A stretch of DNA of 64,000 bases from NCBI RefSeq assembly GCF_000472425.1, contig NZ_AXAI01000007.1, positions 199,464 to 263,463 of the forward strand. The letters are read 5' to 3'. Positions 747 through 27,275 of this stretch are shown here, one piece after another; positions within the stretch are counted from its first letter, which is position 1; the number at the start of each line of letters is the position of its first letter. Below the pieces are notes generated by a model, which saw only the letters and a list, made by a program, of their open reading frames with translations, made no database searches and had not been told where the DNA came from. A program made the position numbers and the translations under genes. Source of the stretch: Bradyrhizobium sp. Tv2a-2 (lineage in GTDB: Bacteria > Pseudomonadota > Alphaproteobacteria > Rhizobiales > Xanthobacteraceae).

Positions 747-2366
747 ATGAAACGCCGCGACTTCCTCAAATCCGTCTCCGGATTGGCCGCGGGCACCATG
801 GTGTCGGCGCCTGCGATCTTCTCGCCCGCCAAGGCCGATGCGCGGTCCGAGACGCTCCTGATCGTCTCCGAAGGCGGGCCAAACAATCTCGACATCCATG
901 GCGTCGGCACCAACGTGCCCGGCTATGAGGTGTCGTGGAATTGCTACGACCGGCTGATCACCCATGAGATGAAAAGCGGCCCGGGCGGCGTGCCCTATTA
1001 CGATCGCGACAAGATCAAGGGCGAACTCGCCGAGGACATGAACCTCGGCGACATGTCGGTCACCTTCAAATTGAAGAAGAACGCCAAATTCCACGACGGC
1101 GCGCCGGTCACCGCGAAGGACGTCAAATGGTCGCTCGACCGCGCGGTCAGCGTTGGCGGCTTCCCGACCTTCCAGATGAGCGCGGGCTCGCTCACCAAGC
1201 CCGAGCAGTTCGTCATCGTCGACGACTACACGGTGCGCGTCGATTTTCTCAAAAAGGACAAGCTCACCATTCCCGACCTCGCGGTCATCGTGCCCTGCGT
1301 GGTCAATTCGGAGCTGGTGAAAAGGAGCGCCTCCGAGAAGGACCCCTGGGGCCTCGAATACACCAAGCAACAGACCGCGGGCTCCGGCGCCTACAAGGTG
1401 ACCAAATGGACCGCGGGCACCGAAGTGGTGATGGAGCGCAACGACGCCTGGGTCGGCGGGCCCGTGCCGAAGATCAGGCGCGTGATCTGGCGCATGGTGC
1501 CGCAGGCCGGCAACCGCCGCGCGCTGCTCGAACGGGGCGACGCCGATATCTCCTATGAGCTGCCGAACAAGGACTTTCAGGAGATGAAGGCGGAGAGCAA
1601 GCTCAACGTGGTGTCGCTGCCGTTTTCCAACGGCATCCAGTATATCGGCATGAACGTCACCAAGCCGCCGTTCGACAATCTCAAGGTGCGGCAGGCGGTG
1701 GCCTATGCGCTGCCCTATCAGAAGATCATGGACGCGGTGTTGTTCGGCCTCGCCAACCCGATGTTCGGCGCGCCCGCAGACAAGCCGACCGAGGTCGGCT
1801 GGCCGCAAGCCCATAAATATTTCACCGACATGGAGAAGGCCAAGGCGCTGATGGCGGAAGCCGGCTACGCCAACAGCATCGAGACCACGCTGTCATTCGA
1901 CCTCAATTTCGCGCAGGTCAACGAGCCGCTTTGCGTGCTGGTGCAGGAGAGCCTGGGCCAGATCGGCATCAAATGCACGATCAACAAGGTGCCCGGCGCC
2001 AACTGGCGCACCGAACTCACCAAGAAGGAAATGCCGCTGTTCACCAACGTATTCTCGGGCTGGCTCGATTACCCCGAATACTTCTTCTACTGGTGCTATC
2101 ACGGCAACAATTCGATCTTCAACACCATGAGCTACAAGTCGCCGGAGATGGACAGGCTCATCGACGGCGCGCGCGAGTCGGCCGCAACCGGCGACACCGC
2201 AGCCTACGACAAGGACGTGAAGGGCTTTGTCGATCTGGCCTTTAGCGACATTCCGCGCATCCCGCTCTATCAGCCCTTCGTCAACGTCGCGATGCAGAAG
2301 AACATCTCCGGCTATCAATACTGGTTCCACCGCCGGCTCGACTATCGCAGCCTGGTGAAGGCGTGA
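747..2366 (+). CDS. ABC transporter substrate-binding protein, peptide/nickel family (SBP_bac_5), Tat-exported
   Basis: 539 residues. The start at 747 is chosen because GGAG at 735-738 is correctly spaced and the protein then opens with a twin-arginine signal (KRRDFLK, R3-R4), a hydrophobic stretch and a likely cleavage after AKA at residue 30. The remainder is a family-5 binding protein like DppA/OppA, with GAPVTAKDVKWSLDRA and a characteristic PPFDNLKVRQAVAYAL segment. It should capture the solute in the periplasm for the permeases at 2527-4444 and the ATPase at 4450-6180. Family 5 proteins bind peptides, nickel, opines and other compounds. The adjacent AtzE/AtzF-type enzymes suggest a nitrogen-rich amide or ureide as ligand, which is inference. 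It is first gene after the sigma-54 promoter at 685-701. Confidence 0.9.
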   Translation: MKRRDFLKSVSGLAAGTMVSAPAIFSPAKADARSETLLIVSEGGPNNLDIHGVGTNVPGYEVSWNCYDRLITHEMKSGPGGVPYYDRDKIKGELAEDMNLGDMSVTFKLKKNAKFHDGAPVTAKDVKWSLDRAVSVGGFPTFQMSAGSLTKPEQFVIVDDYTVRVDFLKKDKLTIPDLAVIVPCVVNSELVKRSASEKDPWGLEYTKQQTAGSGAYKVTKWTAGTEVVMERNDAWVGGPVPKIRRVIWRMVPQAGNRRALLERGDADISYELPNKDFQEMKAESKLNVVSLPFSNGIQYIGMNVTKPPFDNLKVRQAVAYALPYQKIMDAVLFGLANPMFGAPADKPTEVGWPQAHKYFTDMEKAKALMAEAGYANSIETTLSFDLNFAQVNEPLCVLVQESLGQIGIKCTINKVPGANWRTELTKKEMPLFTNVFSGWLDYPEYFFYWCYHGNNSIFNTMSYKSPEMDRLIDGARESAATGDTAAYDKDVKGFVDLAFSDIPRIPLYQPFVNVAMQKNISGYQYWFHRRLDYRSLVKA

Positions 2367-2435
2367 GTGCCGCGCGCCAAATCGGTTTTGACAGTTTTCG
2401 CTTTCCCTCGGGAGCTGGGGGAAGGATGGATGCGC

Positions 2436-2517
2436 CCCGCGCAAGCGGGCTGCGTCCAGGTGGGGGGCATGTCTGGAACGGCCCTGGCATGCCCCGCCAC
2501 CGTCCACGCTGCGTGGA
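2436..2517. other. three consecutive hairpins between binding protein and permease genes
   Basis: CCCGC-GCAA-GCGGG (2436-2449), GGGGCATG/CATGCCCC (2464-2495) and TCCACG-CTG-CGTGGA (2503-2517) lie in the 160-bp gap. Such structures after a binding-protein gene commonly protect its mRNA so that it is made in excess over the permeases. The last stem overlaps the GGAG (2515-2518) that serves the permease start at 2527 and could lower its translation. Confidence 0.55.
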
Positions 2518-2526
2518 GACGCGTCC

Positions 2527-3540
2527 ATGCTGAGCCTGATCGGCAAGCGGCTGATGTTTGCGGTCCCGAGCCTGATCGGGGTCGTGATCGTGACCTTCCT
2601 CCTGACCCGCGCGCTGCCCGGCGATCCCGCCGCCTATTTTGCAGGTCCCGCGGCGACCACGGAGGCGGTCGAGCAGATCCGCAAGAAACTCGGCTTCGAC
2701 CGGCCGCTGATTGAGCAGTTCATCCGCTACACCAACGATCTCGCCCATGGCGACCTCGGAACGTCGCTGACCACAGGCCAGCCGGTTGCGACTGAAATCC
2801 GCAATCGTTTGCCGGCCTCCGCCGAGCTCACCTTGCTCGGCCTCATCATTTCAGTTGCGATCGCGCTGCCATTGGGTGTGCTTGCCGCAACCAGACCAGG
2901 CTCCTGGATCGATCATCTCTGTCGTGTGACGACAACGGCCGGCGTGTCGCTGCCGGTGTTCTTCACCGGGCTGGTGCTGGTCTATGTGTTCTATTTCCTG
3001 CTTGGCTGGTCGCCCGCGCCGCTCGGCCGTCTCGATGTGTTCTACAGCGCGCCGCCGACGGTGACCGGCTTCTATTTGATCGACGCCCTGATCGAGCGCG
3101 ATTTCGAGGCGTTCCGCTCGGCACTGAGCCAGCTCATCCTCCCCGCGGCGACGCTTGCAATCTTCTCGCTGGCGCCGATCGCGCGCATGACCCGCGCCTC
3201 CATGCTCTCGGTGCTGGCGTCCGATTTCGTGCGCACCGCGCGCGCCAGCGGGCTCGCACCCGGCAAGGTGATCGTCACTTATGCGTTCCGCAACGCCTTG
3301 CTGCCGGTCATCACCACGCTGTCCATGGTGTTCTCCTTCCTGCTCGGCGCCAATGTGCTGGTGGAGAAGGTGTTCGCCTGGCCCGGCATCGGCTCCTATG
3401 CGGTGGAAGCCTTGATCTCCTCGGACTTCGCGCCGGTGCAGGGTTTTGTCCTCACCATGGCGGTGATGTACGTCGTTCTCAATCTGCTGATCGACATCCT
3501 CTATGGCGTGATCGATCCACGCGTCCGGCTGGAGGGCTGA
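2527..3540 (+). CDS. ABC transporter permease, DppB type
   Basis: 337 residues with an N-terminal membrane segment (FAVPSLIGVVIVTFLLTRALPGDP) typical of DppB/OppB, then about five further helices. The EAA loop is around the segment ARASGLAPGKVIVTYAFRNALLPV, which contacts the ATPase. The start at 2527 has GGAG 8 bases upstream. It forms a heterodimeric channel with the DppC-type permease that begins 4 bp after its stop. The substrate is unknown but shared with the operon. Confidence 0.92.
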   Translation: MLSLIGKRLMFAVPSLIGVVIVTFLLTRALPGDPAAYFAGPAATTEAVEQIRKKLGFDRPLIEQFIRYTNDLAHGDLGTSLTTGQPVATEIRNRLPASAELTLLGLIISVAIALPLGVLAATRPGSWIDHLCRVTTTAGVSLPVFFTGLVLVYVFYFLLGWSPAPLGRLDVFYSAPPTVTGFYLIDALIERDFEAFRSALSQLILPAATLAIFSLAPIARMTRASMLSVLASDFVRTARASGLAPGKVIVTYAFRNALLPVITTLSMVFSFLLGANVLVEKVFAWPGIGSYAVEALISSDFAPVQGFVLTMAVMYVVLNLLIDILYGVIDPRVRLEG

Positions 3541-3544
3541 AGTC

Positions 3545-4444
3545 ATGAGCAGCGTCGCGCCGACGGTTGAACCTGCCGCGCCCGCACGGTCTTCGGGGCT
3601 GATCGCGCTGTTCGAGCACACCCGCTATGTGCTCGGCGAGAACAAGGTCACGGCATTTGCCTTCGGCCTGCTGGTCGTCATCCTCTTCGCTGCCCTGTTC
3701 GGGCCCTATATCGTTCCCTACGATCCGCTCGCCTCCGATACGGTCGCGGCGCTGAAGCCGCCCTCGGCGGCGCATTGGTTCGGCACCGACCAATTGGGCC
3801 GCGACATCTTCAGCCGTGTCGTGGTCGCAACCCGGCTCGACACCTTCATCGCGGTTGCCTCCGTGGTGCTGGTGTTCCTGATGGGCGGGCTCGCCGGCAT
3901 CGCGGCCGGCTATTTCGGCGGCTGGACTGACCGCATCGTAGGCCGCATCGCCGACACCATCATGGCCTTCCCGCTGTTCGTGCTGGCGATGGGCATCGTC
4001 GCCGCACTCGGCAACACCGTGCAGAACATCATCATTGCGACGGCGATCGTGAACTTCCCGCTCTACGCCCGCGTCGCGCGTGCGGAGGCCAACGTTCGCC
4101 GCGATGCCGGCTTCGTGCAGGCGGCGCGGCTCTCCGGCAATACCGAGTTCCGCATCCTGCTCGGGCATATCCTGCCCAACATCATGCCGATCATGATCGT
4201 GCAGATGTCGCTGACCATGGGCTACGCGATTTTGAACGCCGCCGGTCTCTCCTTCATTGGGCTTGGCGTACGGCCGCCGACCGCGGAATGGGGCATCATG
4301 GTCGCGGAGGGCGCGAGCTTCATGGTGTCAGGCGAATGGTGGATCGCGCTGTTCCCGGGCCTCGCGCTGATGATCGCGGTGTTCTGCTTCAACCTGCTCG
4401 GCGACGGCCTGCGCGACATCGTCGACCCGCAACGACGGACGTGA
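3545..4444 (+). CDS. ABC transporter permease, DppC type
   Basis: 299 residues. It has the DppC/OppC layout: an N-terminal cytoplasmic stretch, one helix, the signature HWFGTDQLGRDIFSRV, then the BPD_transp_1 domain with the EAA loop around ARLSGNTEFRILLGHILPN. The ribosome-binding site GGAGGGCTGAAGTC overlaps the end of the preceding permease gene, which indicates translational coupling. It pairs with the 2527-3540 product in the inner membrane. Confidence 0.92.
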   Translation: MSSVAPTVEPAAPARSSGLIALFEHTRYVLGENKVTAFAFGLLVVILFAALFGPYIVPYDPLASDTVAALKPPSAAHWFGTDQLGRDIFSRVVVATRLDTFIAVASVVLVFLMGGLAGIAAGYFGGWTDRIVGRIADTIMAFPLFVLAMGIVAALGNTVQNIIIATAIVNFPLYARVARAEANVRRDAGFVQAARLSGNTEFRILLGHILPNIMPIMIVQMSLTMGYAILNAAGLSFIGLGVRPPTAEWGIMVAEGASFMVSGEWWIALFPGLALMIAVFCFNLLGDGLRDIVDPQRRT

Positions 4445-4449
4445 CCAGC

Positions 4450-6180
4450 ATGACCGCGCAACCCCTGCTCGACGTGCACGATCTCACGGTGGAGTTCACC
4501 ACCCGCCGCGGCATCGTCAAGGCGGTGCAGCATGTCAATATCAGCGTCGGCAAGGGCGAGACGCTCGGCATTGTCGGCGAATCCGGCTCCGGCAAGTCGG
4601 TGACCTCCTATGCGGTGATGCGGATCCTCGACCGCGCGGGAAAAATCGCCGAGGGCTCGGTGATGTTCTCCGGCATCGATGTGAAAGCCGCCAGCGAAGG
4701 CGCAATGCGCGACCTGCGTGGCCGCGAAATCTCGATGATCTTCCAGAACCCGCGCGCCGCGCTCAACCCGATCCGTAAAGTCGGCGACCAGATCGAGGAC
4801 GTGCTGCGCCAGCATGTGCAGCAATCGACCGTAGTCGAACGTGGCGAGAAGGCGATTCAAGCGCTGGAGCAGGTCAAGATCGCCCGTCCCCGCGAGCGCT
4901 ATCACGCCTATCCGTTCGAGCTTTCCGGCGGCATGTGCCAGCGCGTCGTCATCGCGCTAGCGCTCGCCTGCAACCCGCAGCTCCTGATCGCGGACGAGCC
5001 GACCACCGGCCTCGATGTCACCACGCAGAAGGCGGTGATGGACCTGGTCGTCGAGCTCACCAAAAAGCGCGGCATGTCGACCATCCTGATCACACATGAC
5101 CTCGGGCTCGCTGCTGCCTATTGCGACCGCGTGGTGGTGATGGAGAAGGGCCGGGTGGTCGAGACGGCGAAATCTGCCGAGATCTTTGCCAACCCGCAGC
5201 ACCCCTACACAAAGAAGCTGATGCGCGCGACACCGCGGATCGGCGTGTCCCTGCGTGACCTGTTGCCAGAGGAGGCGCCTCTCAGCGCGAGCTCCGCTCG
5301 CCGCGACCCCCTGAAGGGCGAGGAGAGGGAGAAGAGCGGCGACTGCCAACCCCTCCTTCTCGTCGAAAAGCTGGTCAAGGAATATCCCCGCCAGGGCGCC
5401 ACTGCGGTGCTGTCCAAACTCTTCTCCCGCAAGCCGCCGGTCGAGCCGGAAGTCTTTCGCGCCGTCGATGGCATCAGCTTCTCCGTCGGCCGAGGCGAGA
5501 GCGTCGGTCTGGTCGGCGAATCCGGCTGCGGCAAGTCAACGACGTCGATGATGGTGATGCGGCTGCTCGACCAGACCTCGGGCCGCATCGTGTTCAATGG
5601 CGAGGAGATCGGCGCCATCATGCCGAACGCCTTTGCGCGGCTGCCTTTGCGCAGCCAGATCCAGATGGTGTTCCAGGATCCGACCGACAGCCTCAACCCG
5701 CGCTTCACCGCGGCCCGCGCCATCGTCGATCCGATCCTGCAACTTGGCGACATCAGGGGCCGCGACGCGCGCGCCCGCTGCGAGGAGCTGGCCACCCTGG
5801 TCGGCCTGCCGCTCAATTTGCTGGATCGTTTCCCGCATCAATTGTCCGGCGGCCAGAAGGCCCGTGTCGGCATCGCGCGCGCGATCGCGCTCCACCCCAA
5901 ACTCGTCATCCTGGACGAGCCGACCGCGGCGCTCGACGTCTCCGTGCAGGCCGTGGTGCTGAACCTGCTGCAGGACCTCAAGGCCTCCCTGGGCATGAGC
6001 TATTTGTTCGTGTCCCATGATTTGAATGTGGTACGCTTGTTGTGCGATCGTGTGATCGTGATGCGCACGGGACGGATCGTCGAGCAGGGGCAGGCCGAGC
6101 AAGTGCTTTCGGACCCGCAAGATCCCTACACCAGGGAGCTCCTGACAGCGATTCCGCATCCGCCACTGCCGGTGCACTGA
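4450..6180 (+). CDS. ABC transporter ATP-binding protein with two fused ATPase domains (DppD-DppF type)
   Basis: 576 residues with two complete nucleotide-binding domains in tandem. NBD1 has Walker A GESGSGKS, signature LSGGM and Walker B LLIADEPT; NBD2 has GESGCGKS, LSGGQ and LVILDEPT. An oligopeptide-transporter C-terminal segment (NPQHPYTKKLM, DPQDPYTRELL) follows each. The fusion replaces separate DppD and DppF, as in GsiA-like proteins. ATG 4450 is used; an in-frame GTG at 4441 overlapping the permease stop is an alternative. It powers the importer made of the two preceding permeases. It is followed after 33 bp by the AtzG-like gene, which ties transport to amide hydrolysis. Confidence 0.93.
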   Translation: MTAQPLLDVHDLTVEFTTRRGIVKAVQHVNISVGKGETLGIVGESGSGKSVTSYAVMRILDRAGKIAEGSVMFSGIDVKAASEGAMRDLRGREISMIFQNPRAALNPIRKVGDQIEDVLRQHVQQSTVVERGEKAIQALEQVKIARPRERYHAYPFELSGGMCQRVVIALALACNPQLLIADEPTTGLDVTTQKAVMDLVVELTKKRGMSTILITHDLGLAAAYCDRVVVMEKGRVVETAKSAEIFANPQHPYTKKLMRATPRIGVSLRDLLPEEAPLSASSARRDPLKGEEREKSGDCQPLLLVEKLVKEYPRQGATAVLSKLFSRKPPVEPEVFRAVDGISFSVGRGESVGLVGESGCGKSTTSMMVMRLLDQTSGRIVFNGEEIGAIMPNAFARLPLRSQIQMVFQDPTDSLNPRFTAARAIVDPILQLGDIRGRDARARCEELATLVGLPLNLLDRFPHQLSGGQKARVGIARAIALHPKLVILDEPTAALDVSVQAVVLNLLQDLKASLGMSYLFVSHDLNVVRLLCDRVIVMRTGRIVEQGQAEQVLSDPQDPYTRELLTAIPHPPLPVH

Positions 6181-6213
6181 CGCGCCAAGGCAAAGACGAG
6201 GCAAAGGATAGGT

Positions 6214-6396
6214 ATGGCTGCTGACCCGCTTGACGACTACATCGATGCCCTTGCAAACGCACTGGCGTTGCCGGTCGAGGATGCCTGGCGGCCGGCGATC
6301 AGGGCCAATCTCGATGTGTCGCTGAAGCTGGCGCGGATGGTCGACGCCTTTGCGCTGCCGGACGAGACTGAGCCTGCCCCCATCTTTAGCGCTTGA
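6214..6396 (+). CDS. atzG: AtzG-like small subunit (DUF4089 family)
   Basis: 60 residues. It starts DPLDDYIDALANALALPVEDAWRPAI and continues NLDVSLKLARMVDAFALPDETEPAPIF. This is the DUF4089/AtzG/HpxX pattern, a GatC-like strap that wraps the amidase partner AtzE and ends in a PAP motif. A strong Shine-Dalgarno (AAAGGATAGG) precedes ATG 6214. The amidase gene begins 7 bp after its stop, the usual AtzG-AtzE arrangement. It is expected to stabilise the amidohydrolase and complete its heterotetramer in the cytoplasm; it has no catalytic residues of its own. Confidence 0.82.
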   Translation: MAADPLDDYIDALANALALPVEDAWRPAIRANLDVSLKLARMVDAFALPDETEPAPIFSA

Positions 6397-6403
6397 TGCC
6401 GTG

Positions 6404-7801
6404 ATGACTGCAAACCCGATTGGACTTTCCGCCGCGGAGATCGCGCAAGCGGTCGCAGCACGCAAGATGTCCGCGCTTTCCGTCACCGAAGCCGCGCTGG
6501 CGCGGATCAAGCAGCACGATACGGTGCTCAATTCCTTCACCGACGTGACCGGCGATCGCGCCCGCGCCAGGGCGCGCGCGATCGATGCTGCGCTCGCCGC
6601 AGGCGAGGGGGTCGGTCCGCTCGCCGGCGTTCCCTTCGCCGTCAAGAACCTGTTCGACGTGAAGGGGCTTGCGACCCGCGCAGGTTCGAAGATCAACCGT
6701 GACCTGCCGCCGGCTTCGCGCGATGCAACCCTGATCGAGCGGATGGAAGCGGCCGGCGCCGTGCTGGTCGGCGCGCTGAACATGGGCGAATACGCCTATG
6801 ACTTCACCGGCGAGAACGTCCATGACGGACCGTCGCGCAACCCGCATGACCCGACGCGGATGAGCGGCGGTTCCTCGGGCGGCTCGGGCAGTGCCGTCGG
6901 CGGCGCGTTGGTGCCGATCGCGCTCGGCTCCGACACCAACGGCTCGATCCGCGTGCCGTCCTCGTTCTGCGGCATCTTCGGCCTGAAACCGACCTATGGA
7001 CGATTGTCGCGTGCGCGCTCCTTTCCCTTTGTCGCAAGCCTCGATCATCTTGGCCCGTTCGCGCGCAGTGTAACCGACCTTGCGCTGGCCTATGACGCCA
7101 TGCAGGGTCCCGACGCGGATGATGGCGCCTGCGCGACGCGCGAGATCGAGCCCGTGACATCGCTGGTCGGCCAGGGCCTCGGCGATCTTCGCATCGCTCT
7201 CGCCGGCGGCTACTTCCAGCAGAACGTCTTTGCCGAAGCCAAGGAAGCGGTCGCGCGTGTCGCAAGGGCGCTGAATGTGAGTGAGACGGTTGAGCTGCCC
7301 GAGGCGGCCCGCGCCCGCGCTGCGGCCTATGTCGTCACCACGGTCGAAGGCGCCTCACTGCATCTTGAGCGCCTGCGCACGCGCCCCAACGATTTCGATC
7401 CCGCGGTGCGCGACCGGCTGATCGCGGGCGCCATGATCCCCGCGCCCCTGGTCGATCGCGCGCAGAAATTCCGCTGCTGGTATCGCGCGCAGGTGGCAGA
7501 CCTGTTCAAGACGGTCGACGTGATCATTGCGCCGGCGACGCCCTGCGTTGCGCCCAAGCTCGGCCAGTCGGCCTTCGTGCTCGACGGCGTCGAGCTGCCG
7601 GTGCGCGCCAATATCGGCATCCACACCCAGCCGATCTCCTTCATCGGCCTGCCTGCCGTTGCGGTGCCGGTCCCGCTGGAGCCGATGCCTATTGGGGTGC
7701 AGATCATCGCCGCGCCGTGGCGCGAGGACATCGCACTGCGAGTGGCCTTCGCGCTCGAGCAGATGGGCGTTGCCGTCGCGCCGCAGCCGAAAGGACTCTA
7801 G
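6404..7801 (+). CDS. atzE: AtzE-family amidohydrolase (amidase signature enzyme)
   Basis: 465 residues, close to AtzE length. The amidase-signature Ser-cisSer-Lys triad is visible: K81 in FAVKNLFD, the cis-Ser in GGSSGG (157-158) and the nucleophile S181 in [15 protein letters not shown] instead of the usual DTGGS is a feature I associate with AtzE. In Pseudomonas ADP, AtzE with AtzG deaminates 1-carboxybiuret to 1,3-dicarboxyurea during cyanurate breakdown; the related HpxY acts in oxalurate catabolism, so the natural substrate here is open. ATG 6404 is chosen, with GTG 6401 in frame as an alternative. It lies between the small subunit and the AtzH-like gene. Confidence 0.85.
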
Positions 7802-7815
7802 AGGATCACGAAGAG

Positions 7816-8214
7816 ATGGATATCGATCTGCCTGACGTCGTCGCCGAAATGACCGCGCAATTCGAGCGCTATGAGACCGCGCTGGTCAACAACGACGTTG
7901 CCGTGCTCGGGGAGTTGTTCCGCAACGATCCCCGCACGCTGCGCTATGGCATCGGCGAGAATCTCTATGGCCATGCCGAGATCAACGCCTTCCGCGCCGC
8001 CCGCTCGCCGGTCGGACTGATGCGCAGCACCGCGCGGACCGTGATCACGACCTACGGCCGGGACACCGCTGTGGCCTCGACCCTGTTCTACCGCGACAGT
8101 GCGCCCGGTCGGGTCGGACGGCAAATGCAGACCTGGGTCCGTTTCCCGGAAGGCTGGAGAATCGTCGCTGCCCATGTCAGCATCATCGATGAACCAAAGG
8201 TTGTTGCCACATGA
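7816..8214 (+). CDS. AtzH/HpxZ-like protein (DUF3225, NTF2-like fold)
   Basis: 132 residues beginning [20 protein letters not shown], with the NTF2-like pattern of family DUF3225: [33 protein letters not shown] and [17 protein letters not shown]. Members are AtzH, described as a 1,3-dicarboxyurea deaminase that yields allophanate, and HpxZ of oxalurate catabolism. Its position directly after AtzE fits either. GAGGA lies about 10 bases before the ATG. The stop overlaps the GntR start (ATGA at 8211-8214), so the regulator is translationally coupled to the catabolic operon. Confidence 0.8.
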
Positions 8215-8963
8215 GCCTCGACGATCTCCCCGCCAACAGCGCCTCGCCCAAGGAAAGGGCTAAAGAAGGGGCCAAGGACGGGGTCGTGGTTCGGCGTGTC
8301 GACCGGGCGTCGGGGCCTGCGGAAAAGATCACCCGGGCAGAAGAACTGCGGCTCCAACTCGCTGATGAGATCGTGCGCGGCACGCTGGGGCCAGGCGCGC
8401 CGCTGGACGAGACCGAAATCGCCCGCCGCTTCAACGTTTCGCGCACCCCGGTGCGCGAGGCGCTGCGCCAGCTCGCGGCTTCCGGGCTGGTCGAAACCCG
8501 CGCCCATCGCGGCGCCGTGGTGGCGCGACCGACGCTGGAACGGCTGACCGGCATGTTCGAGGCCATGGCGGAACTGGAAGCGATCTGCGCCGGTCTTGCC
8601 GCCGAGCGCATGACCCCGGTCGAGCGTCACCAGCTGGAGGCCGTGCATGAGGAGTTGCGCGTGCTCTCCTATGCCGGCAACCCGGACCGCTTCCACGAGG
8701 TCAATGAGCGCTTCCACAACACGATCTATGCTGGCTCGCAGAACACCTACATTGCCGAGATGACGCTTGCGACCCGGGTGCGCGTGCAGCCGTTCCGCCG
8801 CGCCCAGTTCCGCAATCTCGGGCGGCTCGCGAAGTCGCACGCCGAGCACGACCGCGTGGTGGTCGCGATCATGCGGGGCGACAAGGCCGGCGCCGAGCTC
8901 GCGATGCGCGCGCATATCGAGCTGGTGCGCGACGAGTACGAGCTCTACGCGGTGTCGGTGTAG
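8211..8963 (+). CDS. GntR-family transcriptional regulator, FCD (FadR-like) subfamily
   Basis: 250 residues. A winged helix at about 42-110 ([39 protein letters not shown]) is followed by an FCD ligand-binding domain with metal-type His residues ([24 protein letters not shown]). It is the last gene of the importer/AtzGEH operon and overlaps its neighbour by 4 bp, so it probably controls this operon and/or the divergent-side allophanate hydrolase. A candidate operator is the dyad at 10953-10971. It may repress until a pathway intermediate binds, which is inference. Confidence 0.88.
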
Positions 8964-8977
8964 CGCGCGCTCTCTCT

Positions 8978-9060
8978 CCGTCATTCCGGGGCGCGCGAAG
9001 CGCGAACCCGGAATCTCGAGATTCCGGGTTCGATGCTGTCGCATCGCCCCGGAATGACGG
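8978..9060. repeat. palindromic intergenic repeat, CATTCCGG family, copy 1
   Basis: The outer arms CCGTCATTCCGGGGC and GCCCCGGAATGACGG (15 bp) are perfect complements. Inside are GCGCGAAGCGC, a perfect 26-bp palindrome at 9005-9030 centred on CTCGAG, and GATGC-TGTC-GCATC. The element fills the gap between the convergent GntR and allophanate hydrolase genes and could end both transcripts. A related copy is at 32331-32436. Confidence 0.85.
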
Positions 9061-9067
9061 TGCCAAA

Positions 9068-10867
9068 TCACACCGCAGCGGCTTCCGCCATATACGCCCG
9101 CCAGCCGCCGAACTCGGAGATATTCCGCGCGCGCTCGAGCGCGGCCGGCTCGACGATAAAGCCCTTCACATTGCGGCCGTCGGCGAGCCGGATGGTGCCG
9201 ATCGAGAGCGGCGGCGGGATTGCTGCGACGAATTTGCCAAAGGCGGCGGCCGACAGCGCCCAGATCTCCAGCTCTATCGCCGTGCCCGTACCAGGCTCGA
9301 CGCGCAGCATGCCCGGCTTTGGCGGGGTGGTGTCGAGCGCATAGAGCTTGTAGTCGGGCGCCGTCACGGTGGTCTCGACCAGCCGCCCGGATAGCGCCTT
9401 CAATTCACCGTTCAGCGCCATGCCGGACAGATGCGCGCCGACCACGGCGATCGGAATGTCGTCCTGGCCGACACTTGCCGGCAGCGGCGCGAGCGGCGGC
9501 TGCGCAATGTTGTTGGCGCCGACACCGAGCCTGGTGTCGGCGTGGAAGACGCGGCCGATCGAGGCGAGCAGCGCATCGCGCCCGGCAGGTGCGAGCAGGG
9601 TGACGCCGAACGGCAGGCCGTCGCTGCGGAACGAGGCTGGCAGCGCCAGTCCGCAGAGGTCGAGCAGGTTGACGAAATTGGTGTAGGTGCCGAGCCGGCT
9701 GTTGAGCAGGACCGGATCGGCCAGCACCTGCGCTGTCGTATAGACCGACGGCGTTGTCGGCAGCACCATGGCATCGAAATTCGCCAGGATACGCTCGGCG
9801 ATCTTGCGGACGCCCTGCAGCCGGTAGAGCGCGGAAAAAGTCTCCGCCGCGGTGAGCCGCGCGCCGGGCGCAATGACCTCGCGCGTGACAGGATGGATAG
9901 CGTCGGGCGATGACGCCAGCAGATTGCGGATCACGAGATAGCGCTCCGCTACCCACGGCCCCTCATAGAGCAGCCGCGCCGTCTCGTAGAACGGCTCCAT
10001 GTCAAATTCGACGAGGGTGGCGCCGAGTGCGGCAAACCGCTTCAGCGCGTCGCGATAGGCGGCCTCTTGCGCCTTGTCGCCGAAGAAGATCAATTGCCCG
10101 CTCTTGGGAATGCCAAGGCGGAAATTGGCCGGCAGCCCGGTGATCTCGCCCAGCGCTCGGTCGCGCGAAAATGGATCGGCGCCGTCGGGGCCGCTCATGG
10201 CGGCAAGTGCGGTCACGGCGTCGTCGACGGTGAGCGAGAAGATCGACACACAGTCGAGCGTACGGCAGGCCGGTACGACGCCGGCGGTCGAGATCATGCC
10301 GAGGCTTGGCTTGAGGCCGACGATATTGTTGAGCAGCGCCGGCACGCGGCCGCTTCCCGCGGTGTCGGTGCCGAGCGCAAGCGGCACAAGCCCTGCGGCA
10401 ACCGCGACCGCTGATCCCGAGCTTGAGCCGCCCGGCAACAGCTCGGCGCGCAGCGGGTTCTTCGGGATGCCGTAAGGTGAGCGCACGCCGACAAGGCCGG
10501 TCGCGAACTGGTCGAGATTGGTCTTGCCAATGGGAATGGCGCCGGCCGCCCGCAGCCGCGCGACCGCGGTCGCATCAAATGTCGGCGAATAGGCGAAAGC
10601 CGGGCAGGCGGCCGTGGTCGGCAGGCCCAGCATGTCGATATTGTCCTTCACGGCGACCGGCACGCCAAGAAGCGGCAGCCGGGTCGCGTCCTTGCGTGCT
10701 GCGAGGCTCTCGGCCTCCGCGATCGCATCCTTTTCGTCGCGCAGTGAGATGAAGATGGCGGGATCGTTGTGGTCGCGGATACGCTGATAGCTGCGTGCGA
10801 CGGTCTGCGCAGGCGTTAGGGTGCCTGCGCGATGCGCGGCCACGATCGCGGCAACGGTTTCGGTCAC
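9068..10867 (-). CDS. atzF: allophanate hydrolase
   Basis: 599 residues starting at GTG 10867, with GGAG about 8 bases upstream; the ATG 4 bp further out is in another frame. The amidase domain (about 1-460) carries K74 in VAVKDNID, the cis-Ser in GGSSSG (147-150) and the nucleophile S172 in TDTAGSGRVP. The extra C-terminal domain (about 480-599) ending ISEFGGWRAYMAEA is characteristic of allophanate hydrolases such as AtzF/DUR2. The enzyme converts allophanate to two ammonia and two CO2. It is the terminal step for products of the AtzG/E/H-like set, and it has its own sigma-54 element at 10942-10956. Confidence 0.93.
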   Translation of the reverse strand: MTETVAAIVAAHRAGTLTPAQTVARSYQRIRDHNDPAIFISLRDEKDAIAEAESLAARKDATRLPLLGVPVAVKDNIDMLGLPTTAACPAFAYSPTFDATAVARLRAAGAIPIGKTNLDQFATGLVGVRSPYGIPKNPLRAELLPGGSSSGSAVAVAAGLVPLALGTDTAGSGRVPALLNNIVGLKPSLGMISTAGVVPACRTLDCVSIFSLTVDDAVTALAAMSGPDGADPFSRDRALGEITGLPANFRLGIPKSGQLIFFGDKAQEAAYRDALKRFAALGATLVEFDMEPFYETARLLYEGPWVAERYLVIRNLLASSPDAIHPVTREVIAPGARLTAAETFSALYRLQGVRKIAERILANFDAMVLPTTPSVYTTAQVLADPVLLNSRLGTYTNFVNLLDLCGLALPASFRSDGLPFGVTLLAPAGRDALLASIGRVFHADTRLGVGANNIAQPPLAPLPASVGQDDIPIAVVGAHLSGMALNGELKALSGRLVETTVTAPDYKLYALDTTPPKPGMLRVEPGTGTAIELEIWALSAAAFGKFVAAIPPPLSIGTIRLADGRNVKGFIVEPAALERARNISEFGGWRAYMAEAAAV

Positions 10868-10941
10868 TCATGACTCCGAAAGAAACCCGGCAGCTTGTCC
10901 GGGACGTAAGCGTCTTCGACTAAATTTTCTCCCGTTGCGAA

Positions 10942-10956
10942 GCAAGGGGTATGCCA
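10942..10956 (-). promoter_or_regulatory. sigma-54 (RpoN) -24/-12 promoter for allophanate hydrolase
   Basis: Read on the minus strand, TGGCATACCCCTTGC matches TGGCAY-N5-TTGC with the obligatory 10 bases between GG and GC. It lies about 75 bp upstream of the GTG start at 10867. Together with 685-701 it places both transcription units of the island under nitrogen-type control. Confidence 0.7.
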
Positions 10957-10971
10957 TGTGTACAACATGGC
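10953..10971. promoter_or_regulatory. dyad overlapping the -24 element, candidate operator
   Basis: GCCATGT-GTACA-ACATGGC has perfect 7-bp arms and covers the -24 box on the minus strand. A repressor bound here would block RpoN holoenzyme. The FCD-GntR regulator at 8211-8963 is the obvious candidate, but this is inference. Confidence 0.5.
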
Positions 10972-11091
10972 TCGACGCGGAACATGCCGGATTTTCGGTT
11001 TGGAGTCAGCGCTTTGCGGAGTCTACAAGGTCTGAGAAGAGGTGCGGTCGCGTTGCCTCGGCCGCCCTGTCTGCTTAATCGTTGGGCAATC

Positions 11092-12366
11092 TCACGTCGT
11101 GACCTTGCTGCTGCCTTGCGTGATCAGCCGCGCCGAGCGCTGGTCGCGGGCGTAGATCCAGAGCCAGCTCAGGGCGACGCTTAGCCGGTGACGCAGGCCG
11201 ATCAGGAAGTAGATGTGGGCAATCCCCCAGATCCACCAGGCGATCGCGCCCTTCAGCCGGATGCGTCCGAAGTCGATCACGGCGAGCCCTTTGCCAATCT
11301 GCGCGAGGCTGCCGGAGTGATGATAGCGGAACGGCGGCAGCGTCCGCCCGGCAAGGCGCGCCTTGATCAGGTTGGCGACATAGCGCCCCTGCTGCTTGGC
11401 GGCCGGAGCAATGCCGGGGACAGGCTTGCCATCCCAGGCGGCGATCGTGACGGTGTCGCCGATGGCAAAGATGTCGGGGTGACCGGGCACTGAGAGGTCG
11501 GGCGCGACCTCGACGCGGCCCGCACGGTCCGCCGGCGCGCCCAGCCATTCCGCGGCAGGTGAGCCGCGCACGCCGGCCGCCCAGATGATGGTGCGCGCCT
11601 CCAGTTTCTTGCCGCCATAGACCACGCCGTCCTGCGAACAGTCGGTGACGCTCTGGCCCAGCACCACCTCGACGCCGATGCGCTCCAGCGAGGCCTGCGC
11701 GTAGGCGGAGAGCTGGTCGGGAAAGCCCGTGAGCACGCGCGAGCCGGCCTCGATCAGCACCACGCGTGCCTTGCGGGTATCGATCTTGCGGAAATCGCCG
11801 ATCAGCGTGTGATGGGCGAGCTCGGCGATGGTGCCGGCGAGTTCGACCCCGGTCGGGCCCGCGCCGATGATGGCAAAGGTGAGCCGCGCGGCGCGCTTTT
11901 GCGGATCGCTTTCGCGCTCGGCGCGCTCGAAGGCGATCAGGATATGCCGCCGCAGCGTGGTCGCGTCTTCCAGCGTCTTCAGGCCCGGCGCGAATTGCTC
12001 CCATTCGTCGTGGCCGAAATAGGTGTGGCGCGCGCCGGTGGCGAGAATGAGCGTGTCGTAGGGCACGGAACCATCGCGGTCGAGCAGCACGTGGCGGTTT
12101 TCAGTATCGATGCCGGTCACGGTGGCGAACAGCGTCGTCACCTCGGGGCGGTCGTGCATCAGGTAGCGGATCGGCCACGCGATCTCGGACGTTGCCAGCG
12201 AGGCGGTCGCGACCTGGTAGAGCAGCGGCTGGAACAGGTGATGGTTGCGCCGGTCGATCAGGGTGATCTGAACCGGCGCCCCCTTGAGACGATAGGTCGC
12301 CTCCAGCCCGCCGAAACCGGCGCCGACGATCACCACGCGATGTGGATTTTGCGGTGTCAATGTCAT
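11092..12366 (-). CDS. type II NADH dehydrogenase (NAD(P)/FAD-dependent oxidoreductase)
   Basis: 424 residues from ATG 12366, with GAGG 10 bases upstream; a longer in-frame start at 12405 adds 13 residues without homology. There are two Rossmann folds: FAD binding at the N-terminus (VVIVGAGFGGLEA) and NADH binding (FAIIGAGPTGVELAG). LATGARHTYFGHDEW and DTVTIAAWDGKPVPGIAPAAKQQG are typical of NDH-2. The C-terminus (LRHRLSVALSWLWIYA) is an amphipathic membrane anchor. The enzyme passes electrons from NADH to quinone without pumping protons. It is a stand-alone gene. Confidence 0.9.
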   Translation of the reverse strand: MTLTPQNPHRVVIVGAGFGGLEATYRLKGAPVQITLIDRRNHHLFQPLLYQVATASLATSEIAWPIRYLMHDRPEVTTLFATVTGIDTENRHVLLDRDGSVPYDTLILATGARHTYFGHDEWEQFAPGLKTLEDATTLRRHILIAFERAERESDPQKRAARLTFAIIGAGPTGVELAGTIAELAHHTLIGDFRKIDTRKARVVLIEAGSRVLTGFPDQLSAYAQASLERIGVEVVLGQSVTDCSQDGVVYGGKKLEARTIIWAAGVRGSPAAEWLGAPADRAGRVEVAPDLSVPGHPDIFAIGDTVTIAAWDGKPVPGIAPAAKQQGRYVANLIKARLAGRTLPPFRYHHSGSLAQIGKGLAVIDFGRIRLKGAIAWWIWGIAHIYFLIGLRHRLSVALSWLWIYARDQRSARLITQGSSKVTT

Positions 12367-12471
12367 GGCGTCGGAACCTCGTTTCGTGCATTTCCTTCTG
12401 ATCATGTATTCATTTGCAAGCTCGCTCCAAGCTCTATCTTCCTATCGGGCGATAGCGAAATCCTATCGAAA

Positions 12472-15378: not shown

Positions 15379-15574
15379 TCTTGCCATTTCCAACATTCAC
15401 GAATTATGGTGCACATGTGCTGGGCCGAAGGTTCTAAGCCTTGAACCTCGCTTGGAGCTTGCTGCCGGGGCGGAAATTCGCGCAAAAAAACCATGGAGAC
15501 ACGCCCTGGCAGGGTGCGACCGCAACGAGGCGGCGCAGACAGTTCAATTTTGGAAATTGAGGGAGGGGAATATT

Positions 15575-16747
15575 ATGAAATCGGCATTCTGGCTGGCGGG
15601 CGCGGCTGCGCTTGCGCTGGCGAGCCCGGCCTTTGCCGGCGACACCATCAAGATCGGCTTTGTCTCGACCTTCTCCGGCCCGACGGCCGTGATCGGCAAC
15701 GACATGCGCAATTCCTTCGAGCTCGCGCTCGACCATCTCGGCCGCAAGATGGGCGGCAAGCCGGTCGAGGTGATTTACGAGGACGACCAGCAGAAGCCCG
15801 ACATCGGCAAGCAGAAGACCGAGAAGCTGGTGCAGTCCGACAAGGTCGATTTCATCGCAGGCTATATCTGGTCCAACGTGCTGCTCGCCTCGCTGAAGAC
15901 GGCCGTCGATTCCCAGACCTTCCTGATTTCGGCCAATGCGGGTCCTTCGCAACTCGCCGGCGAATTGTGCTCGCCTTACGTGTTCTCGACCTCCTGGCAG
16001 AACGACCAGACGCCCGCGGCCATGGGCCTCTACATGAACCAGAAGGGCGTGAAGTCGGTATTTTTGATCGGCCCGAACTATGCAGCCGGCAAGGACATGC
16101 TTGCCGGTGTGAAGAGCACCTTCAAGGGCGAAGTGGTCGGTGAGGAATATACGGTGTGGCCGAGCCAGCTCGACTTCTCCGCCGAATTGACCAAGGCGCG
16201 CAACTCCAAGGCCGAATCGATCTTCGTGTTCTATCCCGGGGCGGCCGGCGTGCAGTTCCTCAACCAGTATGCGCAGTCGGGCCTCAAGCAGCAGATGCCG
16301 CTTTATACGGCGTTCACCGTCGACGAATTGTCGCTGCCGCTGCAGAAGGACAATGCGATCGGCGTGCCCGGCGCGCAGGAATGGGTCAACGACCTGCCGG
16401 GCGAGCAGAACAAGCGCTTTGTCGAGGACTACCGCAAGAAATATCCGGGACTGCGGCCGACCTATTACGGCGCGCAGGCCTATGACGCGGCACAACTCAT
16501 CGACAGCGCCGTGGTCGCGGTCAAGGGCGACACCTCCAAGAAGGACGCCATGAAGGCGGAGATGGAGAAGGCGAATTTCAAGTCGTTGCGCGGTGCCTTC
16601 AAGTACGGCAACAACCACATCCCGATCCAGAATTTCTACCTGCAGGACGTGGTCAAGGACGCAAGCGGCGAATTGTCGCTGAAGACGGTCGCCACCATCG
16701 TCAAGGACGATCAGGACCGCTTCCACGACAAATGTCCGATGAAGTGA
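15575..16747 (+). CDS. ABC transporter substrate-binding protein, branched-chain amino-acid (LivK/HAAT) type
   Basis: 390 residues with GGGAGGGG 4-5 bases before ATG 15575 and a Sec signal peptide cleaved after residue 21 (SPAFA-GDT). The mature start DTIKIGFVSTFSGPTAVIGNDMRNSFELALDHLG is a periplasmic-binding-protein type 1 domain of the HAAT class. The substrate cannot be told from sequence; members take up amino acids, amides, urea and aromatic acids. It is the first gene of a five-gene importer operon (to 20244). Confidence 0.9.
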   Translation: MKSAFWLAGAAALALASPAFAGDTIKIGFVSTFSGPTAVIGNDMRNSFELALDHLGRKMGGKPVEVIYEDDQQKPDIGKQKTEKLVQSDKVDFIAGYIWSNVLLASLKTAVDSQTFLISANAGPSQLAGELCSPYVFSTSWQNDQTPAAMGLYMNQKGVKSVFLIGPNYAAGKDMLAGVKSTFKGEVVGEEYTVWPSQLDFSAELTKARNSKAESIFVFYPGAAGVQFLNQYAQSGLKQQMPLYTAFTVDELSLPLQKDNAIGVPGAQEWVNDLPGEQNKRFVEDYRKKYPGLRPTYYGAQAYDAAQLIDSAVVAVKGDTSKKDAMKAEMEKANFKSLRGAFKYGNNHIPIQNFYLQDVVKDASGELSLKTVATIVKDDQDRFHDKCPMK

Positions 16748-16779
16748 GCACGGATTTTGCTAGACACGGCGGCAGCGCC

Positions 16780-16873
16780 AGAGCGTGATGACTTTTGAAC
16801 GTCATCCCGCTCTGTCCCTTTATTGAGCCTGGTCATCTCGGAAAACCGGTTTCCACTTTTCCGGATCATGCTC
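16780..16873. repeat. two adjoining palindromic intergenic repeats
   Basis: AGAGCGTGATGAC (16780-16792) and GTCATCCCGCTCT (16801-16813) pair with one mismatch. This is followed by a GCATGATCCGGAAAA-family element in inverse orientation at 16831-16873. They occupy the gap between the binding-protein and permease genes and may stabilise the upstream mRNA. Confidence 0.7.
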
Positions 16874-16910
16874 GAGACGCTGCCGCCTTTGTTTAATCAC
16901 GTGTGAGCCG

Positions 16911-17828
16911 ATGCTGCTGCTCGTCGAACAGATTTTGAATGGACTGCAGTTCGGGCTGCTGTTGTTCCTGCTTGCAGCCGGATTGACCCTGGTGTTCGGC
17001 ATCATGGACCTGGTCAATCTGGCGCATGGCTCGCTCTACATGATGGGCGCCTATTTCGCCGCGACCTTTGTCGCCTGGACCGGGAGCTTCGTGCTCGGTG
17101 CGGTGCTGGCGCTGGGTGCAACGCTGGTGCTCGGCATGGTGCTGGAGTTCACCACGCTCCGGCATCTCTATGGCCGTGATCATCTCGACCATGTTCTGGC
17201 GACATTCGGGCTGATCCTGTTTTTCAATGAAGCCGTGCGGCTGATCTGGGGCCCGGCGGGGCTGGCGCTGCCGCTGCCGCCCTGGCTGACGGTGCCGGTG
17301 CAGATCTTTCCCGGCATCTATTATCCGGCCTATCGCCTCGCCATCATCGTGGTGGCGCTGCTGGTTGCGCTCTTGCTCTATCTCGGGGTGATGCGCACCC
17401 GCATCGGCATGCTGATCCGCGCCGGCGCCTCCAATCGCGAGATGATCGGCGCGCTCGGCATCAACATCAAGCTGCTATACACCCTGGTGTTTGGCCTTGG
17501 CGCAGCGCTCGCGGGGCTCGCCGGGCTGATGCAGGCGCCGATCCTGACCGTGCAGATCGGCATGGGCGAGAACATTTTGATCCTCGCCTTTGTGGTGATC
17601 GTCATCGGCGGCATCGGCTCGATCCGCGGCGCATTCCTGGCCGCGATCTTTGTCGGCCTGATCGATACGCTCGGCCGCGCCTTCCTGCCCAATCTGCTGC
17701 GGCAGGTGCTGGACTCCGCCTCAGCCTCGACGGCGGCGCCCGCGCTGTCCTCGATGCTGATCTATCTCTTGATGGCAATGGTGCTGGTCGTGCGGCCGGA
17801 GGGGCTGTTTCCAGCCAACCGCCGATGA
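16911..17828 (+). CDS. branched-chain amino-acid-type ABC transporter permease (LivH-like)
   Basis: 305 residues, nearly all hydrophobic helices. LivH signatures are present: QFGLLLFLLAAGLTLVFGIMDLVNLAHGSLYMMGAY at the start and FVVIVIGGIGSIRGAFLAAIFVGLIDTLGRAF before the last helices. The stop overlaps the next permease by 4 bp. The ribosome-binding site is weak, and the preceding repeat may separate its expression from that of the binding protein. Confidence 0.92.
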   Translation: MLLLVEQILNGLQFGLLLFLLAAGLTLVFGIMDLVNLAHGSLYMMGAYFAATFVAWTGSFVLGAVLALGATLVLGMVLEFTTLRHLYGRDHLDHVLATFGLILFFNEAVRLIWGPAGLALPLPPWLTVPVQIFPGIYYPAYRLAIIVVALLVALLLYLGVMRTRIGMLIRAGASNREMIGALGINIKLLYTLVFGLGAALAGLAGLMQAPILTVQIGMGENILILAFVVIVIGGIGSIRGAFLAAIFVGLIDTLGRAFLPNLLRQVLDSASASTAAPALSSMLIYLLMAMVLVVRPEGLFPANRR

Positions 17829-18764
17829 AATCCGCGTTGCAAGTTCGTAGCGTCGTCTCCGCGCTCCTCGTCGCGGGACTTCTGCTGCTGCCGCTCTATT
17901 CGAGCCTCACCGGCAACATCTTCGTACTGACGATGTTTACCCGCATCGTGATCCTGGCGCTGGCCGCCGCAAGCCTGAACCTGATCATGGGGTATGGCGG
18001 CATGATGAGCTTTGGCCATGCTGCCTATCTGGGCATCGGCGGCTATGCGGTCGGCATGCTGGCGCAGGAAGGCATCGGCTCCGGCTTCATCCAGTTTCCT
18101 GTGGCGCTGGCCGCGTCGGCGATCTTCGCTCTGGTCATCGGCGCGCTGTCGCTGCGCACCCGTGGCGTCTACTTCATCATGATCACGCTCGCCTTCGCGC
18201 AGATGGCCTATTACGTCGCATCTGGCCTCGCGCGCTATGGCGGCGACGACGGGCTCACCATCTACAAGCGCAGCGATTTCGCCGGCCTGATCAACCTGTC
18301 GAACCGCGTGCAGTTCTATTATCTCTGCCTCGCCTGCCTGCTGCTGGTGCTGTTCTTGATCTGGCGCATCGTCAATTCCCGCTTCGGCATGGTGGTGCAG
18401 GGGCTGCGCTCCAACGAGCAGCGCATGCGGGCGATCGGCTTTCCCGGCACGCGCTATCGCCTTGTCTGCTTTGTCATCGCCGGCACCATGTGCGGGTTAT
18501 CAGGCGCGCTGCTCGCCAACAACACCGATTTCGTCAGCCCCGCCGTGATGTACTGGACCCGCTCCGGCGACCTGATGGTGATGGTGATCCTGGGCGGCAT
18601 GGGTACGCTGTTCGGGCCCGTGCTCGGCGCGGTGGTCTATCTCCTGCTGGAAGAGTTGTTGTCGCAGATCACCGAATACTGGGCCATCATCATGGGGCCG
18701 CTGCTGCTGTTGATCGTGCTGTTCGGCCGCGGTGGCATCATGGGCGTGCTGGGGAGGTTCTCGC

Positions 18765-18772
<8 letters not shown>
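17825..18772 (+). CDS. branched-chain amino-acid-type ABC transporter permease (LivM-like)
   Basis: 315 residues. LivM features: AAASLNLIMGYGGMMSFGHAAYLGIGGYA and the conserved GLRSNEQRMRAIGFPGTRYRL cytoplasmic loop, then GDLMVMVILGGMGTLFGPVLGA. It forms the membrane channel with the LivH-like protein. ATGA overlap with the gene before and an 8-bp overlap with the ATPase after show tight coupling. Confidence 0.92.
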
Positions 18773-27124: not shown

Positions 27125-27158
27125 GGGGGGGCTCCTAAAAATAGCTCGAAGATCGGTC

Positions 27159-27249
27159 ACTCCGTCATTGCGAGGAGCGTACGCGACGAAGCAATCCAGG
27201 GTCGCTCGCGCGGCTCTGGATTGCTTCGCTTCGCTCGCAATGACGGAGT
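27159..27249. repeat. palindromic intergenic repeat, TCATTGCGAG family, copy 1
   Basis: ACTCCGTCATTGCGAG and CTCGCAATGACGGAGT are perfect 16-bp outer arms. GAAGCAATCCAG (27188-27199) and CTGGATTGCTTC (27216-27227) are inner arms. It lies between the GS-like and Rieske genes. A diverged copy is at 52289-52370. Confidence 0.85.
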
Positions 27250-27275
27250 GCGTGGCAGAAGTGCCGATTCCATCA

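Follow-up and report, generated by a model that had tools for sequence, protein, structure and literature searches.

Clusters that encode AtzG, AtzE, AtzH and AtzF hold the enzymes leading from 1-carboxybiuret through allophanate to ammonia, and the question raised by such a cluster in Bradyrhizobium sp. Tv2a-2 is which enzyme supplies its substrate. The cluster lies in a 64,000-nt stretch of contig NZ_AXAI01000007.1 (here C7), which is called the window at its full length; the genome comprises 8.5 Mb in 87 contigs, with completeness given as 100. An AtzG-AtzE-AtzH-AtzF set with a family-5 ABC importer had been recognised in the original prediction, and its coordinates and identities were confirmed by profile scores (Table 1). 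The window had also been described as lacking a first-step enzyme, and none was found there for AtzD, the BiuH family, TrtA or the TrtA-linked permease described below (best E 0.18 for the last two), or for HpxW among the matches listed (5 of 8). The interpretation built on this, namely a first enzyme elsewhere or a different amide as substrate, was supported in part as a whole. The cluster is here considered, with good though not full confidence, to be the lower part of a biuret-hydrolase-independent pathway (TrtA, AtzEG, AtzH, AtzF) for triuret, a product of uric-acid oxidation.

Candidate first enzyme on a second contig

A genome search for atzD and hpxW homologues had been suggested. No match to AtzD (PF09663) was found anywhere in the genome by profile search, using a profile that gave matches in 18 of 50 genomes of the same search. 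HpxW had no match in this genome at E <= 1e-125, and the best HpxW-like protein, a distant one (40%), is encoded on contig C9, where no searched pathway gene lies within about 9 kb (locus L110). No biuret hydrolase over the cut-off (NF050097, 370 bits) was found in this genome; the only match to that family at E <= 1e-30 scored 257 bits and was located on contig C14, not on C7. A urea amidolyase pathway was rejected, as there was no urea carboxylase over the cut-off to work with AtzF: a full-length enzyme exceeded the TIGR02712 cut-off in none of 18 genomes, and the five matches of this genome were confined to positions 1-445 of 1201.

The match on C14 (L130:9658-10362; L, G and C numbers denote loci, genomes and contigs of this analysis) is the TrtA candidate. 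Compared with solved structures, the protein scored 288 bits to TrtA (6XIX) and 220 bits to BiuH (6AZO). Six TrtA residues that differ in BiuH are F35, N41, A134, E160, Y187 and I205 (PMC7948467). The C14 protein has FNAEYI at these positions, where BiuH has YYSDTV, together with the D-K-C triad and Q202, so that all seven diagnostic residues (the six and Q202) are present. The fetched loci were split cleanly by the same positions into a TrtA type (FNAEYI, with one FNMEYI), a BiuH type (YYSDTV), and four more distant isochorismatases with neither. The C14 protein thus appears to be of the triuret hydrolase type, and activity on triuret is predicted for it. Each of the 11 same-genus genomes, counting this one, has a TrtA-type gene (six of six residues, L130-L140); AtzD was present in 7 of the 11, and BiuH over the cut-off in 6. 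TrtA is the sole known carboxybiuret maker common to all 11 and the sole one found in this genome; since no AtzD was found here, carboxybiuret would come from TrtA.

A separate observation concerns a Salipiger profundus plasmid (L152:2124-3499), where two BiuH-like hydrolases that show neither the TrtA nor the BiuH signature and lack Q202 are encoded within an operon of the same-type importer with atzGEH; this pair possibly represents a third specificity.

A 552-aa membrane protein is encoded on the minus strand of C14 (L130:7986-9641), beginning 16 bases after trtA. This frame was accepted as the real gene, and opposite-strand open reading frames (ORFs) beside trtA were dismissed, on the basis of per-frame conservation and codon-position GC. 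The protein had no match to Pfam or NCBIfam models. Its predicted structure, with a moderate pLDDT of 70.5, matched SLC26Dg, UraA, BicA and SVCT1 at TM-scores by query length of about 0.4-0.5, and because the model is only moderate the UraA/SLC26-like fold is treated as a lead. Loci were collected for the best 80 of at least 591 relatives in GTDB genomes; most are Bradyrhizobium, and these loci are therefore not independent. A TrtA-type gene was held by 77 of the 80 (six of six residues in 76, five in one); in 74 loci it precedes the permease by no more than 300 bases, in the same orientation, and the remaining three are loci whose contig starts no further than 869 bases ahead of the permease. 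That the permease carries triuret is a guess from this linkage. The homologue in Terrarubrum (L153:5334-6935) carries the RefSeq name 'regulator', which looks like a misannotation.

Linkage of trtA to the cluster in relatives

Searches with PF11533 (AtzH) covered 387 genomes of the class, with 61 over the cut-off, and 397 of the phylum, with 47 over it; neighbourhoods were fetched for 109 AtzH matches over the cut-off, and matches under it were left out. The cluster is a conserved Bradyrhizobium module. Among the ten other same-genus loci, the importer was present in nine (L010 is without it) and AtzF was in place in nine (the contig of L009 ends before it). The combination of importer, AtzE, AtzH and AtzF, in varying order, is found in distant families as well (L018, L024, L025, L028, L029, L050, L051 and L095). 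On plasmids of Roseomonas and Salipiger, the importer is accompanied by AtzG, AtzE and a relative of AtzF that is either split or distant; in Roseomonas mucosa (L151:1658-3471), the atzF next to the same-type importer is annotated as two reading frames that overlap.

The prediction of a first enzyme elsewhere agrees with the finding of a triuret-hydrolase-type gene and its own permease on another contig, and in relatives this pair is located inside the very locus studied here. The order in Bradyrhizobium sp. S69 (L169) is flavoprotein gene-trtA-permease-atzF-GntR-atzH-atzE-atzG; the window has the same order minus trtA-permease, with flanks of about 80% DNA identity. In a Tardiphaga metagenome-assembled genome (MAG; L201), trtA-permease-atzF faces GntR-atzH-atzE-atzG-importer convergently, with protein identities of 71-90%. 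A Terrarubrum plasmid (L153) carries importer-trtA-permease-atzF-atzG-atzE-atzH on one strand, and a Beijerinckiaceae MAG (L232) and G670 (L018) hold importer, atzH, GntR, atzF, trtA, permease and atzE in a single locus. In G376 (L147), trtA adjoins GntR, atzF, importer and atzE-atzH without the permease, and in Tardiphaga robiniae (L217, L218) trtA-permease-atzF stand together with the rest of the cluster not nearby.

Co-occurrence was counted in 148 genomes of the family (completeness >=95 asked for), with the TrtA type recognised by a score band of 230-315 bits. The TrtA type was found in 61 genomes and AtzE in 99, with 59 carrying both (Fisher p 6e-12, without correction for shared ancestry). 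The two genomes with the TrtA type and no AtzE both have BiuH, and AtzE was present in 48 of the 48 genomes with the TrtA type and no BiuH. In 6 genomes, drawn from five genera, trtA and atzE lie at most 15 kb apart, where 0.3 such genomes would be expected. HpxW (E <= 1e-125) was found in 103 genomes with no clear tie to AtzE, which was present in 74 of them (p 0.06, by a Fisher test that ignores shared ancestry). The 99 AtzE genomes comprise 40 with the TrtA type and HpxW, 19 with the TrtA type only (including this one), 34 with HpxW only and 6 with neither. Among the 109 AtzH loci, a TrtA-type gene was held by 19, accompanied by AtzE only in nine, by BiuH only in five and by both in five, with none having neither; for one of the nine AtzE-only loci, in G505, a BiuH gene lies about 20 kb away.

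The AtzH of the window matches the solved pADP-1 AtzH at all nine pocket residues, including Tyr22 and Arg46 (paper numbering). Arg66 was conserved in 69 of 69 loci with AtzE (L025 and L147 count the same gene twice) and in none of the five loci with TrtA and BiuH and without AtzE; the corresponding counts for Arg96 were 68 of 69 and one of five. This contrast is read as a dicarboxylate versus a putative monocarboxylate pocket. In L096, L098, L099, L103 and L105, a Bmp/NupABC importer, BiuH and TrtA occur with no AtzE, and the AtzH relative without Arg66 may be the TrtB decarboxylase. In L065-L080, L101, L104, L106 and others, a 393-aa amidase (PRK08310 type) replaces AtzE as the partner of AtzH, perhaps to feed another substrate into the same decarboxylation step.

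Proposed route and competing substrates

Gene identities, TrtA- and AtzH-specific residues, linkage and co-occurrence were computed here; the catalytic steps were taken over from characterised homologues, in which they are known individually (PMC7948467, PMC6219798), and we infer the joint use of the four enzymes and the transport. TrtA, encoded on C14 with its neighbouring permease, would convert triuret to 1-carboxybiuret and ammonia. AtzEG would convert 1-carboxybiuret to 1,3-dicarboxyurea and ammonia, ahead of its decay to biuret, for which a half-life of about 20 min is given (PMC7948467). AtzH would take one carboxyl group off 1,3-dicarboxyurea to leave allophanate, and AtzF would convert allophanate to ammonia and CO2; with this end step after TrtA, AtzEG and AtzH, all four nitrogens would be recovered. 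Compared with the biuret route, this order would have the advantage of consuming carboxybiuret before biuret forms, in a genome where no biuret hydrolase over the cut-off was found. The family-5 importer may take up triuret or a related ureide.

Several points weigh against this assignment. The enzyme activities in this strain are expected from homologues, and the relatives compared are not independent samples. Because trtA lies outside the cluster in this genome, co-regulation is putative. The S69 locus is without the importer in the fetched stretch, and the trtA loci of G305 and G705 are without the permease. AtzE probably serves other substrates too, because 40 of the 99 AtzE genomes have no TrtA-type gene and 34 of these have HpxW, which also stands beside AtzF and the same-type importer in L024 and L028. 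An AtzD-family gene occurs in 7 of the 10 other same-genus genomes, so in those strains the module may receive substrate from cyanurate as well. Finally, six AtzE residues were considered as a substrate mark: the window AtzE agrees with pADP-1 AtzE (SINREH), and the 11 HpxW-linked rows of group f180 (taken, from locus layout, to be Enterobacterales) have ALFSAY or near. The mark was weakened by L047, an HpxW locus outside f180 that has SIHKEH and is without the HpxY residues, so that the contrast rests on one clade and may mark lineage. In the AtzE tree, the window AtzE was placed among AtzF- or TrtA-linked rows, with a very long outgroup branch that leaves the root unsure.

Oxalurate had been offered beside "another ureide" as a substrate. 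In an oxalurate (HPX-like) pathway, AtzGE and AtzH would turn oxalurate into oxamate, and AtzF would be a neighbour for another purpose. HpxX, HpxY and HpxZ are presumably relatives of AtzG, AtzE and AtzH, and we take HpxW to be the marker enzyme of this pathway. The AtzH of the window falls in the HpxZ family model, HpxW stands beside atzE-atzH in 11 f180 loci and in L024, L028 and L047, and HpxW without a TrtA-type gene was found in 34 AtzE genomes. Yet at E <= 1e-125 HpxW was found neither in this genome nor in 9 of the 10 other same-genus genomes, AtzF is kept in every other same-genus locus but the one cut by a contig end, and in the family AtzE is tied to TrtA (59 of 61) but not clearly to HpxW. 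Oxalurate is thus unlikely; the proposal of another ureide is right in kind, with triuret as the probable one.

Markedly unlikely is a cyanuric acid pathway that has lost atzD, or the uptake of carboxybiuret or biuret made by other cells. The enzymes are the same as those of pADP-1 atzGEHF, AtzD-family genes are frequent in the genus as counted above, and atzD adjoins atzGEH in G515 (L017) and G465 (L014), but no AtzD-family match was found in this genome, G533, G543 or G588, all of which keep the whole module, and carboxybiuret decays within minutes (PMC7948467).

It is very improbable that the importer and AtzGEH serve some other ureide or amide, with trtA as one of several exchangeable first enzymes. 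The importer-atzGEH set does occur without trtA in the fetched stretches of L024, L028, L029, L050 and L051, the Salipiger operon holds its two hydrolases with other residues in that place, and triuret is only a putative ligand of the importer; within the genus, however, trtA is in close synteny with this very locus, and AtzE accompanies the TrtA type in every family genome without BiuH. The oxalurate, cyanurate and urea-carboxylase explanations were thus each weaker than triuret or without the enzyme they call for.

Known systems and the genes of the window

The set shares AtzG, AtzE, AtzH and AtzF with atzDGEHF of Pseudomonas sp. ADP (pADP-1, NC_004956), at identities of 53% for AtzE, 61% for AtzH and 50% for AtzF and with the same key residues in AtzE and AtzH; in contrast to pADP-1, no AtzD was found, a family-5 importer lies in the cluster and atzF is convergent. 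With the TrtA-(TrtB)-BiuH-AtzF system of Herbaspirillum sp. BH-1 (PMC7948467) it shares a TrtA-type first and AtzF as last enzyme, but here AtzEG would deaminate carboxybiuret, which in that system is decarboxylated to biuret, and no BiuH over the cut-off was found. A permease stands beside trtA here, whereas the BiuH-type loci of this survey have a Bmp/NupABC importer. AtzH also matches the HpxZ model of the hpxWXYZ oxalurate cluster (PMC3560190); the 11 fetched f180 loci have HpxW and no AtzF, in contrast to the window.

Proteobacterial atzG-atzE-atzH clusters, rarely with atzD or atzF, have been known since 2018 with their role left open (Esquirol et al., PMC6219798). Some, as here, include allophanate hydrolase and ABC transporters, and the TrtA link now adds a concrete candidate substrate. 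In PMC7948467, AtzEG is mentioned as a known enzyme that acts on the TrtA product, operons combining TrtA, BiuH and AtzF are reported, and a urate-oxidant link in root nodules is proposed for TrtA; TrtA, TrtB, BiuH and AtzF in nitrifiers are treated in PMC12625717. No paper joining triuret and Bradyrhizobium and no description of a TrtA-AtzEG route was found in the literature searched, with most subscription papers, including the AtzEG paper itself, outside its coverage. Chances are evenly balanced for a wider proposal: that a second triuret pathway, one that bypasses biuret, is widespread in Bradyrhizobium and its relatives, perhaps operates in soil and legume nodules, and is the natural role of many unexplained atzG-atzE-atzH clusters; that the 552-aa proteins, with a UraA/SLC26-like fold, form a dedicated triuret permease family; and that the loss of two arginines separates, within the AtzH family, monocarboxylate decarboxylases (possibly TrtB) from dicarboxylate ones (AtzH). 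Enzymes of an atrazine plasmid would then have relatives in an apparent triuret pathway, root-nodule bacteria, in a setting where urate meets oxidants, would have triuret as a nitrogen source, and a function would be suggested for a transporter family that has no Pfam or NCBIfam model.

In the window, a compact plus-strand run (747-8963) extends from the substrate-binding protein to the GntR regulator, with 4-base overlaps at the permease/ATPase and AtzH/GntR junctions, and AtzF is convergent to it. AtzG, AtzE, AtzH and AtzF each exceeded the curated cut-offs in Pfam/NCBIfam profile searches. With the AtzE family over its cut-off and AtzG adjacent, the pair is assigned to the AtzEG family, and action on 1-carboxybiuret is expected by analogy. 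The importer belongs to family 5, and peptide carriage by it is putative.

Table 1. Features of the cluster and its flank, in window coordinates
Feature	Position	Strand	Basis
Family-5 substrate-binding protein of importer	747-2366	+	PF00496/SBP_bac_5, 264 bits; orthologue beside atzGEH in 9/10 other same-genus loci
Importer permease, DppB/OppB type	2527-3540	+	PF00528, PF19300
Importer permease, DppC/OppC type	3545-4444	+	PF00528, PF12911
Importer ATPase, two ATP-binding halves	4441-6180	+	PF00005, two stretches
AtzG, predicted small subunit of 1-carboxybiuret hydrolase	6214-6396	+	PF13318, 56.6 bits, cut-off 24
AtzE, predicted catalytic subunit of 1-carboxybiuret hydrolase	6404-7801	+	NF006631, 740 bits, cut-off 461; nearest solved structure 6C62
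AtzH (HpxZ family), predicted 1,3-dicarboxyurea decarboxylase	7816-8214	+	NF033625, 201 bits, cut-off 135; PF11533; 9/9 pocket residues of pADP-1 AtzH
GntR/FCD regulator	8211-8963	+	PF00392, PF07729
AtzF, predicted allophanate hydrolase, amidase and C-terminal domains	9068-10867	-	TIGR02713, 807 bits, cut-off 511; PF21986
Slot between atzF and flavoprotein gene, empty here; trtA-permease there in Bradyrhizobium sp. S69	10868-11091		DNA comparison with L169
Flavoprotein (Pyr_redox_2), synteny marker only	11092-12405	-	PF07992; 80% DNA match in L169

Downstream of importer-atzE-atzH in L024 (4208-9753), genes for HpxW, a TRAP transporter and a TauE-type exporter were found. Further along the window itself, two components of another ABC importer, a Peripla_BP_6 binding protein and a BPD_transp_2 permease, are encoded at 15452-18772, and a glutamine-synthetase-domain protein at 25691-27646.

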